Below, piece by piece: positions 15,164 to 46,488 of a stretch of DNA of 64,000 bases (positions are counted from its first letter, which is position 1; every line of letters starts with the position of its first letter). A program made the position numbers and the translations under genes. The notes beneath the pieces were generated by a model. The model did not search any database, had not been told where the DNA came from, and saw nothing but the letters and a program-made list of their open reading frames with translations. The stretch lies in NCBI RefSeq assembly GCF_000316665.1, contig NC_019678.1, positions 1,736,001 to 1,800,000 of the forward strand. The letters are read 5' to 3'. This DNA is from Rivularia sp. PCC 7116 (GTDB lineage Bacteria; Cyanobacteriota; Cyanobacteriia; Cyanobacteriales; Nostocaceae).

Positions 15164-15415
15164 ATGAAACCAAATTGGAGGCGTTGTATTAGTTGTCGAA
15201 AAGTCAGTTTAAAAAGTGAGTTTTGGCGGATTGTCCGCGTCTTTCCTTCAGGAAAGGTACAATTAGATCGGGGTATGGGGCGTTCTGCCTATATTTGTCC
15301 GAATTCAACTTGCCTTAGCCTTGCTCAAAAAAAAAATAAACTAGGACGGGCATTACGTGCACCAGTTCCAGAAATGCTGTATAAGACACTGTGGCAGCAA
15401 TTAACAATCAAGTAA
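15164..15415 (+). CDS. rnpM: YlxR/RnpM family protein
   Basis: An 83-residue basic protein of the YlxR family (DUF448). The signature RRCISCRKV near the N-terminus and the second segment DRGMGRSAYICPNSTC are both intact. Homologues in Firmicutes bind and modulate RNase P RNA (RnpM); cyanobacterial function is inferred from family. It sits 44 bp after nusA, as in most bacteria, and before the structured infB leader. Confidence 0.88.
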   Translation: MKPNWRRCISCRKVSLKSEFWRIVRVFPSGKVQLDRGMGRSAYICPNSTCLSLAQKKNKLGRALRAPVPEMLYKTLWQQLTIK

Positions 15416-15724
15416 CTTTTTACTTGTTCAAATTATATAGGGGGTAATTTTAACAAATATTAAAGCTGAGATTCGCCTATAAATGCGTTCTTCTATGTTG
15501 ATTAAATTATCTTTTAGTAAAGAAGGTTAGTGCCACGGAGAATTATAAATGAGTATTGACACATGGCTCTTTTGGGCAATAAGGGCACTTGCTTTTACTG
15601 AGTTATTGTAGGCAGATCGTGTGTTAAACCCGACAAAAACATCAACAAAACAAAAAACTAAATATCGGCATTTGGTAACGCCCATGCAGCCCATTCGAGC
15701 ATTAACCAATATGGCGACAGGCTT

Positions 15725-15862
15725 GGAGATGCCAGCTTTCCAATGGACACATCTCTCTTTCCTTTTTCAGGAGGAACCTTTTCAAATTGAAAATGGCAAC
15801 CGTTACACAGTTTTCAAAGGATGGAGATGTCGCAAAAGCTGGCAGCCATCCGTTAAAACTGT
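15725..15862 (+). promoter_or_regulatory. Structured infB leader with two mutually exclusive folds
   Basis: Fold A: hairpin 1 pairs GGAGATG (15725-15731) with CATCTCT (15750-15756); hairpin 2 pairs ACAGTTTT (15807-15814) with AAAACTGT (15855-15862) and, inside, GGATGG (15819-15824) with CCATCC (15846-15851). Fold B: TGCCAGCTTT (15730-15739) pairs perfectly with AAAGCTGGCA (15835-15844), and nested inside it CATCTC (15750-15755) pairs with a second GAGATG (15824-15829). Both folds are coherent and exclude one another. The infB ATG is 21 bp after the last stem. This suggests a conformational switch, but one frame (15621-15941) is open across the region, so coding cannot be ruled out. Confidence 0.55.
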
Positions 15863-15864
15863 AA
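15787..15864 (+). CDS. Possible leader peptide upstream of infB
   Basis: A 25-codon frame starts at TTG 15787 (or ATG 15793, 23 codons) and ends 18 bp before the infB ATG. AGGAGG at 15769-15774 lies 12 bp before the TTG. The frame reads through hairpin 2 of the leader, so its translation would disrupt that hairpin. No codon bias or family is recognisable; it may be chance. Confidence 0.25.
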   Translation: MKMATVTQFSKDGDVAKAGSHPLKL

Positions 15865-15882
15865 ATTATAGGGGAAGAGTGG

Positions 15883-18800
15883 ATGAACAACGGCAAAGTC
15901 AGAATTTACGAATTATCAAAGGAATTGAATTTGGAAAATAAAGAGCTATTAGCAATTTGCGACCAGCTCAACATCGCGGTCAAAAGTCATAGCAGCACTA
16001 TTACTGAATCGGATGCAGAACGTATTCGTTCGCAAGCAGAAAAACTGACAACAACTTTGGGGTTGTCGAAAGAGCATGGTACAAATAATAAGGGTTCTGC
16101 CAACGGTCATAATGCACCCAGCAAACCACAAATATTGGAAATTCGTAGCAAACCAAAGCCACCGAAGAACTCCAGTAGTACTGACTCTGCTTTGCTCTCA
16201 CCCAATTTAGAAAACCAACAGAGCGCATCTACCGATAGCGCGTCCGCAAAACCTTTTAATTCTTCAGTCTCGCCGAAAGAAACAGTGGCACCAACTGCAC
16301 CAGTCTCCCCGAATCAGCCCTTGCGCTCTCCAGATAACTCTGTATCCGTTACAAATACGGATAATTCAGCATCCACTCCCTCTTCAGAATCAAATAAAAC
16401 AGCTTTGAGCAAACAAGAAAAACTAGTTACACCCAAATCTAAACCGGAAAGACCAAATGCACCCGAACTAACTGCGCCGCCAACTAGACCTGCGGCAGCA
16501 AACCCAAATTCCGGTTCGGACGATCGCGTCGTTGAAAAACCAATTCTTAAGCGCGATCGCAGTCAATCAAAACCGCCGCAACGCAAGCGGGAACAGAATG
16601 CCGAGAAAGCTGAAATATCAGCAGCACCAGCTTCTAAAACCCCGCGTCCGACTTCTGCACCAGTATCAAAAGTAGAAAAGCCGCAGAAGGTCAAGAAAAT
16701 CTCCCAGGGAGGCGGTGGTTCTTCTGATGTTGCACGTCCGAAAAAGCAAGTACGTCAAGAATCGTCAGCGCCTCCGAGTGTATCGGCGCTTAAACCCCCA
16801 GTAAGACCTGCCAAACCGTCGGTTGGCGAATCAACTGATGTTGACGACAATGATGATGATGATGTAGTTGTCGAAGAAGTAGTAGAGCTAAAGCGTCCAA
16901 CACCACCTCGTTTACCCAGAGGTCAGAAAAAGCGCTCCAAACAAGAGGAGGCTATTGACGAAGCTAAAGAAGCAGCTAAAGCCGCAAAAGCTCCTAAGAA
17001 TAAACGTCTGAAGCCAATGGTTGAAGACGATTTTGAGGTAGACTTACTTGACGAAGATGAAGCAAATAATGCGATTCAAGCAGCAGTTAGCAATGCTATA
17101 GTTCGTCCTCCGAAACCAAAAAGTTCCACACCGAAAGCAGCACCAACACCTGCTGCACCAAGCAAAGTTAAAAAATCCGGTTCTCGCGACCAAAATCGTC
17201 GGCGCGGGGGCGGCGGTAATACAGAGGCAGAACCTAAACGTCAGCGTCCTGAAATAATCACGGTTAACGGTCCAATGACCGTACAAGAATTGGCAGATGC
17301 TTTGGCAATGCCAGATACAGAAATTGTCAAAATCTTGTTCATGAAGGGTATTGCAGTTAGTATTACCCAGAGTCTTGATACTTCAACAGTCATTATGGTG
17401 GCTGAAGAATTAGAAGTATTGGTAGATACTCCAGAACCGGAGGCAGAAGCCCGTAAGGTTACGGAGATGCTGGACTTAGCAGATATGGAAAATCTCCATC
17501 ATCGTCCACCCGTAGTCACAATTATGGGTCACGTAGACCACGGTAAAACAACTTTACTCGACTCGATTCGTAAAAGTAAGGTGGCTTCTGGAGAAGCTGG
17601 AGGTATTACCCAGCACATTGGGGCCTACCATGTAGATATCGAACATGAAGACAAAGAGCATCAAATTGTCTTTTTAGATACCCCCGGTCACGAAGCATTC
17701 ACGGCAATGCGAGCAAGAGGAGCAAGGGTTACAGATATTGCCATATTGGTAGTAGCTGCCGATGACGGCGTTCGTCCCCAGACAATTGAAGCCATTAAGC
17801 ACGCTCAAGCTGCGGAAGTGCCAATTATTGTTGCAATCAACAAAATTGATAAAGAAGCGGCACAGCCCGATCGAGTCAAACAAGAGTTGATGCAATATGG
17901 TTTGACCTCAGAAGAATGGGGTGGCGAAACAATCATGGTTCCCGTCAGCGCCATTAAAGGGGAAAACTTAAATACGCTCTTAGAAATGATCGTGCTGGTT
18001 TCCGAAGTTGAAGACCTGCAAGCGAATCCAGAGCGTTCGGCTAAAGGAACTGTCATTGAAGCTCATTTGGATAAAGCAAAAGGTGCAGTCGCAACCTTGT
18101 TAATTCAGAACGGTACCTTACACGTAGGAGATATCCTGGTAGCCGGTTCCGTGTTCGGAAAAGTCCGAGCAATGGTCGATGACAGAGGGGAACGAGTTGA
18201 AGAAGCAAGTCCTTCCTTTGCTGTAGAGGTATTGGGTTTAAACGACGTACCCGCAGCAGGTGATGATTTTGAAGTCTTCACCAATGAAAAAGAAGCACGG
18301 TTACTTGCCAACGAACGAGCCGAGGTAATACGTCAATCCCGCTTGATGCAGGGAGGGCGCGTCACCTTGACAAGTATTTCAGCACAAGCACAAGAAGGCG
18401 AGTTAAAAGAACTCAACTTAATCTTGAAAGCAGACGTGCAGGGTTCGGTCGAAGCTATTTTGGGTTCGCTCAAACAAATCCCGCAAAACGAAATACACAT
18501 TCGGATGTTGCTATCTGCTCCTGGAGAGGTTACTCAGACAGATATCGACCTAGCCGCAGCCAGTGGTGCAGTAATTATCGGCTTTAACACTACATTTGCT
18601 AGTGGTGCGAGACAAGCAGCAGACGAAGCTGGTGTAGATGTACGAGAATACAACATCATCTACAAACTCTTAGAAGACATTCAAGACGCATTAGAAGGTC
18701 TGCTAGAACCAGAATTAGTAGAAGAACATTTGGGTCAAGCAGAAGTACGTGCAGTCTTCAAAGTAGGAGGCGGTGCTGTTGCTGGTTGCTACATCCAATC

Positions 18801-19026
18801 TGGCAAACTGCTTCGTAACTGTAAAGTCAGAGTACGTCGCGGTAATAACTTCGTATTTGAAGGTGCCCTTGATTCCCTCAAGCGGATGAAAGAAGACGTG
18901 CGCGAAGTCAACTCCGGTTATGAATGTGGTATTGGCGTTGATAAGTTCAATAGTTGGGAAGAAGGCGACATAATTGAGGGTTATCAAATGGTGACTAAAC
19001 GTCGCACTCTTGCAATGGCAAGATAG
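15883..19026 (+). CDS. infB: Translation initiation factor IF-2
   Basis: 1047 residues, long even for IF-2 because of a Pro/Lys/Ser-rich disordered N-terminal region, typical of cyanobacteria. An IF2_N domain opens the protein ([15 protein letters not shown]) and a second one lies at about 465-515. The GTPase core has G1 GHVDHGKT (from ~548), G3 DTPGHE (~599) and G4 NKID (~653), all intact, followed by domains II, III and IV that bind fMet-tRNA (ending RTLAMAR). IF-2 places initiator tRNA on the 30S subunit and drives subunit joining. The purine-rich GGGGAAGAG just before the ATG is the likely ribosome-binding site. Its leader is highly structured. Confidence 0.97.
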
Positions 19027-46416: not shown

Positions 46417-46488
46417 AGCCGACGGCGGGATTTGAACCCGCGACCTATTGATTACGAATCAATTGCTCTACCACTGAGCCACGTCGGC
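46417..46488 (-). tRNA. tRNA-Thr (anticodon CGT)
   Basis: Read leftward from 46488 the sequence folds as a full cloverleaf: acceptor GCCGACG/CGTCGGC, D-arm with GCTC..GAGC, anticodon stem ATTGA/TCAAT with loop TTCGTAA (anticodon CGT, decoding ACG), short variable loop and T-arm GCGGG-TTCAAAT-CCCGC. The CCA end is not encoded. It lies between the PleD-like and DUF3493 genes. Confidence 0.97.

Follow-up and report, generated by a model that had tools for sequence, protein, structure and literature searches.

A conserved leader of infB with a predicted movable anti-Shine-Dalgarno strand in Nostocaceae-like cyanobacteria

The infB locus and the ylxR-infB gap

The stretch of DNA analysed in this work (64,000 nucleotides, referred to below as the window) is part of a genome of 8.73 Mb in 3 contigs, and it contains, in this order, rimP, nusA, ylxR, a leader region and infB. 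The gene for translation initiation factor IF2 (infB; 15883-19026, + strand, 1047 aa) was identified by its matches to the Pfam families IF2_N, GTP_EFTU, IF-2 and EF-G_D2, and the gene 5' of the leader (15164-15415, + strand) by its match to YlxR; the two preceding genes are presumed to be rimP and nusA from the usual make-up of this operon. The distance between the end of the ylxR match and infB ranged from 443 to 864 nt, with a median of 503 nt, in 88 loci from the window's family, among which 8 genomes appear to be counted twice. No match to an L7Ae-type ylxQ gene was found in this gap, and no terminator-like site was detected on the + strand between 15380 and 15900. In other families, the longest open segments of the ylxR-infB gap are of 24-96 codons. 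The sole Rfam match above the gathering score in the 64-kb window is a tRNA gene (46417-46488, - strand).

Within the gap, a block on the + strand at 15529-15555 resembles a promoter and is, by eye, similar in most of the 36 same-family genomes, reading mostly GGTTAGTGCCAAAATAGTAAATGGGTG in the relatives. Over the segment 15529-15589, the promoter-like sequence is AATAGTAAATGGGTG in relatives and ATTATAAATGAG in the window, and an inverted repeat formed by AGTGCC (15529-15534) and GGCACT (15584-15589) overlaps the block. This block is a possible separate promoter of infB, which would give a leader of ~325 nt; a scan with the sigma-70 consensus found no promoter at 15529-15555.

A second infB-like gene start was also noted in five same-family genomes (L045:860-1501, L046:873-1499, L047:843-1499, L048:846-1499, and also L049). 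The first ~50 codons of these genes and their start context resemble infB, with 63-80% identity, and in all four that were scanned an IF2_N domain is linked to a stretch that has no confident match in Pfam. No ylxR match is present in the surrounding stretch examined. From their sequences, these genes look like an infB start that has been fused to another protein.

Distribution of the leader and constraint on its sequence

The DNA of the leader (15621-15960) gave a match in all 60 relatives searched. In 34 of the 36 genomes from the window's family (window included) the match begins at 15746 or earlier, and in the other two (G012 and G027) only at 15791 and 15818, respectively; the identity of the same-family matches, the window itself aside, is 77-98%. 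For nearly all families other than the one designated here as f18, the match is limited to the last ~70-105 nt, comprising the Shine-Dalgarno (SD) region and the first codons. Every genome sampled from the window's family has the leader (36/36). A model of it (R1), built from 36 sequences, matched once per genome in 89 of 388 genomes of the order. These include 71 same-family genomes, only part of which entered the later comparisons, 17 from f18, and one with a weak match from a further family, f33 (L121), which was excluded from the alignments. The f18 matches represent 17 of 19 genomes of that family and all 14 with good assemblies. In a sample of 292 genomes from the phylum, R1 matched 33 (32 same-family and one f18), and no match was seen in that sample in families beyond these two; the order and phylum searches both employed stricter filters, by which weak matches are lost. 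In addition, at least 115 pattern matches were obtained in genome contigs, and 113 of them, among the matches listed, lie within 90 nt of an infB-type start. Of the two remaining matches, L168 also has an infB-type start by inspection and L252 is unrelated. The distinct sequences from 105 loci make up an alignment of 89 sequences, 75 of them same-family and 14 from f18.

The strand at 15749-15763 (ACAUCUCUCUUUCCU), which we will refer to as the switching strand, is exactly conserved in 83 of the 88 same-family loci. Its core ATCTCTCTTT is present in 11 of 17 f18 loci, and the core CTCTCTTT was found in none of 23 loci from other families. Many same-family genomes (L011, L012, L019, L022, L023, L026, L027, L039, L044 and others) carry an insert of ~50 nt, shorter in L044, between 15700 and 15701; by appearance it is an A/T-rich hairpin.

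A coding reading of the 106-aa frame at 15621-15941 was rejected, as just two genomes, that of the window (G000) and one relative (G005), match this frame from end to end with no stop. Other relatives show stops, frameshifts or a partial match, and in Pfam the frame obtained only a sub-cut-off match (E 0.08). Coding constraint on this frame, which an earlier note on this DNA had raised as the alternative to a conserved RNA, was not found, and the leader itself is conserved among the relatives. The earlier note had also described a 25-codon frame as a possible leader peptide. This TTG frame (15787-15864) is present in the window, where it follows AGGAGG (15769-15774) and ends 18 nt before infB; as a peptide it did not survive comparison, for in L003 and L004 it is interrupted by a stop, and other genomes show indels of 1-2 nt. 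A leader-peptide attenuator was likewise rejected, since the 25-codon and 106-aa frames are broken in relatives and a longer upstream frame of 33-52 codons has no clear coding constraint. The longer frame is convincing by eye: in 47 distinct same-family sequences it is intact (GTG GAA GAC ... TAA/TGA) and ends 7-10 nt before CATCTC, and the common insert adds 17 codons to it. However, it shows no clear codon signature. Relative to expectation, its nonsynonymous/synonymous ratio comes to 0.82, compared with 0.88 and 1.28 in the two other frames, despite the fact that only intact frames, stop-free by selection, were included; codon positions 1, 2 and 3 have changed 170, 119 and 164 times, and several lineages are frameshifted. 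We consider it highly improbable that a short regulatory peptide is specified by the leader, either by the 25 codons or by the 33-52 codons that end near CATCTC, and that ribosomes on such a frame set the fold.

Searches against Rfam 15 identified no family above its gathering score at the leader of the window. At a relaxed threshold, the window's leader gave only matches of E 1.4-8.7, and 11 related loci gave two of E 0.096 and 0.48, all of them below the gathering score. The GGAG...GGCAACC sequence of the leader has what we take to be a resemblance to the K-turn of SAM-I. A K-turn/L7Ae leader was rejected, as PF01248 was found in 0/60 genomes (controls were detected in 8/14) and there was no SAM-I match. 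Judged by sequence comparison, the leader is a non-coding RNA that has been conserved in the Nostocaceae-like family of the window and in f18.

The infB gene itself is also subject to unusual constraint in its first codons. Synonymous change is strongly suppressed in codons 2-30 (15886-15972, + strand), as measured by the major-codon fraction at conserved residues in 21 genomes, which is 0.93 for codons 2-30 (27 codons), 0.71 for codons 31-60 and 0.64 from codon 61 to the end. In the same 21 genomes, codons 2-30 of the operon neighbours gave 0.73 (rimP), 0.72 (nusA) and 0.76 (ylxR). Among non-operon controls, g11469 gave 0.63 (6 codons, 19 orthologs) and m10334 gave 0.83, based on 2 codons only (19 orthologs); three control genes with 4 orthologs each gave 0.85-0.89, but the rest of these genes is at 0.80-0.87 and they are hence not comparable. 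The suppression extends over approximately codons 2-20 in f18 (0.80-0.86), and in the infB of other families (22 loci) it is found mainly in codons 2-10 (0.83) and then fades. The near-frozen synonymous sites of codons 2-30 indicate that, in the window's family, constraint at the RNA level runs ~90 nt into the gene; the 5' sequence of infB in these organisms evolves under RNA constraint and not under protein constraint alone. Consensus folding revealed no helix between the leader and the coding region beyond the start codon.

Helices of the leader and predicted alternative folds

Two mutually exclusive folds had been proposed in the earlier note, and all of the helices listed for them are present in the window. 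Fold A contains a first hairpin, 15725-15731/15750-15756 (7 bp, one G-U), and a second hairpin made up of 15807-15814/15855-15862 (8 bp) and 15819-15824/15846-15851 (6 bp), and fold B consists of a perfect 10-bp helix, 15730-15739/15835-15844, and an inner 6-bp helix, 15750-15755/15824-15829. The inner helix of B and the second hairpin of A stand as alternative predicted states; however, the proposal missed the SD/AUG partner of the same strand. A helix at 15750-15762/15872-15885 was absent from it, as was the constraint that continues into the coding region.

The 5' part of the leader is an upstream domain (15671-15748, + strand) for which the RNAalifold consensus of 72 distinct same-family sequences suggests a possible three-way junction. 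Its helices are P1 (15672-15675/15740-15743), P3 (15699-15703/15728-15732 and 15706-15709/15723-15726) and, in relatives, a small GCGC hairpin, P2. In 79 sequences, 88.6-91.6% of the cells are paired per helix, the window coordinates of these pairs having been mapped by eye, and P1 and P3 are only partly present in the window's own single-sequence folds. The insert described above lies in this domain. It is followed by the switching, or anti-SD, strand (15749-15763, + strand; ACATCTCTCTTTCCT), which can pair with the SD/AUG region, with AGAUGU or with an upstream GAGAUG. The next segment (15764-15806, + strand), with GGAGG at 15770-15774 and GGCAACC at 15795-15801, was delimited from the alignments as a central hairpin region, a hairpin being predicted in L104 and L107; the GGAGG is missing or changed in part of the window's own genus. 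By eye, in all 14 f18 leaders L104-L117, GGAGG is followed by a five-codon frame, TTG/ATG AAC NNN AAC CAA TAA, in which TTG and ATG interchange. This frame is not kept in L118-L120 or in the same-family leaders viewed.

A two-step hairpin on the + strand (15807-15862) is next, with the helices H1 (15807-15811/15858-15862), H2 (15819-15824/15846-15851) and H3 (15828-15831/15841-15844). In the 89 sequences, 93.3, 99.8 and 96.6% of the cells are paired in H1, H2 and H3, respectively, and at 15820/15850 in H2, 84 sequences have G-C and 5 have A-U. Of the 8 bp at 15807-15814/15855-15862, the 5 pairs of H1 are conserved and the other 3 are, by eye, not general. This hairpin contains AGATGT (15825-15830, + strand), the alternative partner of the switching strand in the inner helix of fold B. 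Their helix comprises 8 bp in fold B of the window, and counted one step shifted (15749-15754/15825-15830) it has 94.4% of its cells paired in the 89 sequences; for the helix between the switching strand and its upstream partner this value is 89.5%. In the window, the 10-bp helix does occur, as one element of the fold predicted for a transcript that ends at 15872, but it is not generally conserved: 65.6% of its cells are paired, only the first 4 bp (UGCC/GGCA) are general, and four of its pairs are unpaired in 62, 30, 72 and 55 of the 89 sequences.

The infB SD region and start codon (15871-15885, + strand; GGGGAAGAGTGGATG) provide the 3' strand (15872-15885) of the SD-hiding helix. This helix, 15750-15762/15872-15885, is of 13 bp, slightly longer in the window, and it has 98.6% of its cells paired with the switching strand in the 89 sequences. 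At the pair 15762/15872, C-G is found in 73, U-G in 9 and U-A in 6 of them. The SD/AUG helix and H1-H3 together have 97.6% of cells paired, compared with 42-56% when the helices are slid, although a lower value for slid controls is expected for any structure read off the same sequences. From the 89-sequence alignment, RNAalifold recovered H2 and the greater part of the SD helix; the covariation term was very small. In comparison with dinucleotide shuffles, complementarity to the SD was significant at p<=0.05 in 56 of 77 same-family, 7 of 16 f18 and 2 of 21 other-family leaders; these derive from 88, 17 and 23 loci, respectively, after duplicates and cut contigs were dropped. By these sequence measures, a strand able to hide the SD is conserved among the same-family leaders and more weakly so in f18.

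In a phylogeny-aware, custom-written covariation test, no pair was significant against the tree-based null, the best E being 0.18 with 89 sequences and 0.28 with 79, and the best-scoring pair in both tests (15790/15794) belongs to no proposed helix. The power of this test is low because the mean number of substitutions per column is only 4.5 (89 sequences). For the SD helix, 7 of 18 substitution events keep pairing, compared with 8.3 expected; slid helices score as high as the real ones, and this test is therefore not discriminating and was given no weight. The upstream helix of fold A lies outside its alignment (0 events) and the 10-bp helix only partly inside. The suggestion of riboswitch-like or translation-coupled control is thus borne out in so far as a conserved system of exclusive pairings lies directly before infB, but not by covariation of the stems, and a switch is inferred here from the maintenance of pairs, near-invariance and folding.

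These observations also bear on a rival explanation, namely that a protein or a small RNA binds the conserved blocks near the infB start as single strands. The pyrimidine strand, itself nearly invariant, and the first 30 codons with their frozen sites would then be the recognition sequence, and the SD pairing would be incidental. Near-invariance with almost no compensatory change would be expected of such sites, as would the synonymous freeze within infB, and part of f18 lacks SD complementarity though GGAGG and H2 stay. However, nearly all of the 89 sequences keep 13 bp of complementarity between the strand and SD plus AUG, three pair types occur at 15762/15872, and the other families, which lack the core, also lack excess complementarity to the SD. 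We regard this explanation as somewhat unlikely.

Minimum-energy folding of the window's leader at three transcript lengths predicted both of the earlier folds for the shorter transcripts. For 15668-15823, hairpin 1 of fold A is formed (7/7 pairs); for 15668-15872, fold B (10/10 and 6/6 pairs) but neither H1 nor H2; and for 15668-15885, which includes the start site, the SD/AUG helix with H1 (5/5) and H2 (6/6). Hairpin 1 of fold A and fold B are hence successive predictions for a growing transcript, of which the SD-hiding fold is the end point. In L015 the first of these stages is skipped. When 74 of the 75 same-family leaders were cut 10 nt before the AUG, the strand was predicted on AGAUGU in 37, on the upstream strand in 14 and mostly free in 27; with the AUG included, it was on SD/AUG in 68, and H2 was formed in 68. 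In 10 of the 14 f18 leaders, SD/AUG pairing was predicted in 6, H2 in 3 and the AGAUGU partner in 0. A mutually exclusive alternative partner for the anti-SD strand is thus predicted by these folds, AGAUGU being used in none of the 10 from f18. The predicted cost of opening SD/AUG is on average 11.5 kcal/mol (range 4.5-14.7; n=75) in same-family leaders and 5.8 kcal/mol in f18 (n=14), and the mean unpaired fraction of SD/AUG is 0.27, 0.39 and 0.47 in the same-family, f18 and other-family leaders (21 of the latter). The folding energy of 15700-15960 is ordinary (-60.6 kcal/mol, z = -1.26; 19 of 200 shuffles as good).

The same predictions are relevant to the possibility that the leader is an RNA thermometer, in which warming would open the SD helix, or cold would cause it to refold, in keeping with the need for IF2. 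The cspA thermosensor has a long leader with constraint that continues into the coding region, and the infB leader is similar in this regard. In Escherichia coli, infB is reported to be cold-induced, partly via preferential translation (PMC6511841). However, the predicted exposure of SD/AUG in 25 leaders rises only from 0.11 to 0.15 between 10 and 50 C, as an equilibrium prediction only, and a thermometer appears very unlikely to us.

Proposed control of infB translation and related systems

Based upon these results, the leader is probably, by a small margin of confidence, a cis-acting translational control element of infB with a movable anti-SD strand and a start site that is closed by default. 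We infer that the predicted folds exist in cells and that they control translation. During synthesis of the leader, the strand 15749-15763 would pair with GAGAUG (15726-15731 in the window), with AGAUGU (15825-15830) or with GGAG near 15772, and as long as it is held by these internal partners the infB start site would be open. After transcription has passed the start site, the strand is predicted to move, at equilibrium, onto the SD and AUG, enclosing H1-H2-H3, and translation would be off. The amount of IF2 made would then be decided by something that holds the leader in its earlier arrangement. As the trigger, feedback from the translation apparatus (IF2, the ribosome or an RNA-binding factor) is favoured over a small metabolite, because there is a single gene target, the leader is present in a single copy per searched genome and the constraint runs through codon 30. 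A more specific version, in which the infB mRNA of the Nostocales, and of one further family, would use the leader and the first 30 codons to sense IF2 or the activity of initiation, the anti-SD strand closing the start when IF2 is sufficient, is speculative and in our estimate unlikely. If true, such an IF2-sensing leader would be an initiation-factor feedback switch that spans both untranslated and coding message.

The supply of IF2 bears directly on translation initiation, and the element, if real, shows how a large bacterial group sets its IF2 levels. Among the matches listed from the open-licence literature, no infB leader switch was seen, nor anything on an infB leader from cyanobacteria; this is not proof of novelty, but the leader is apparently an undescribed control element. 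The cyanobacterial cis RNAs glnA, Downstream-peptide, psaA, PhotoRC and psbNH have been reported as candidate structured RNAs (PMC2864571), and several of them, like the infB leader, are in potential 5' leaders. The main texts of PMC2864571, PMC11109978 and PMC3610870 do not contain the word 'infB', and hence none of these RNAs is described in the main text of the first as an infB leader. In E. coli, the control of infB involves promoters, mRNA stability and a translational bias in the cold (PMC6511841). The nusA-infB system under cold stress is thus similar in that infB has its own promoter and is subject to post-transcriptional control; it is from a different phylum, no leader switch is described in the passages of that paper considered here, and the terms 'secondary structure' and 'untranslated' occur 0 times in its main text. 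The rimP-leader, an attenuator of rimP-nusA-infB operons, is a short conserved terminator motif before the first gene, rimP (PMC2965389). It resembles the infB leader in being a cis element on the same operon. Identity of the two was rejected, as the infB leader follows ylxR, lies directly before infB, whose start it overlaps, and has no terminator-like site on the + strand in the interval given above. Sequestration of the SD is also known from translational riboswitches and from the leaders of ribosomal-protein genes; the infB leader differs from these in that it matches no Rfam family, shows no significant covariation and carries constraint ~90 nt into the gene; with these systems it shares an anti-SD strand that has an alternative partner, a position before the start codon and a single gene target.
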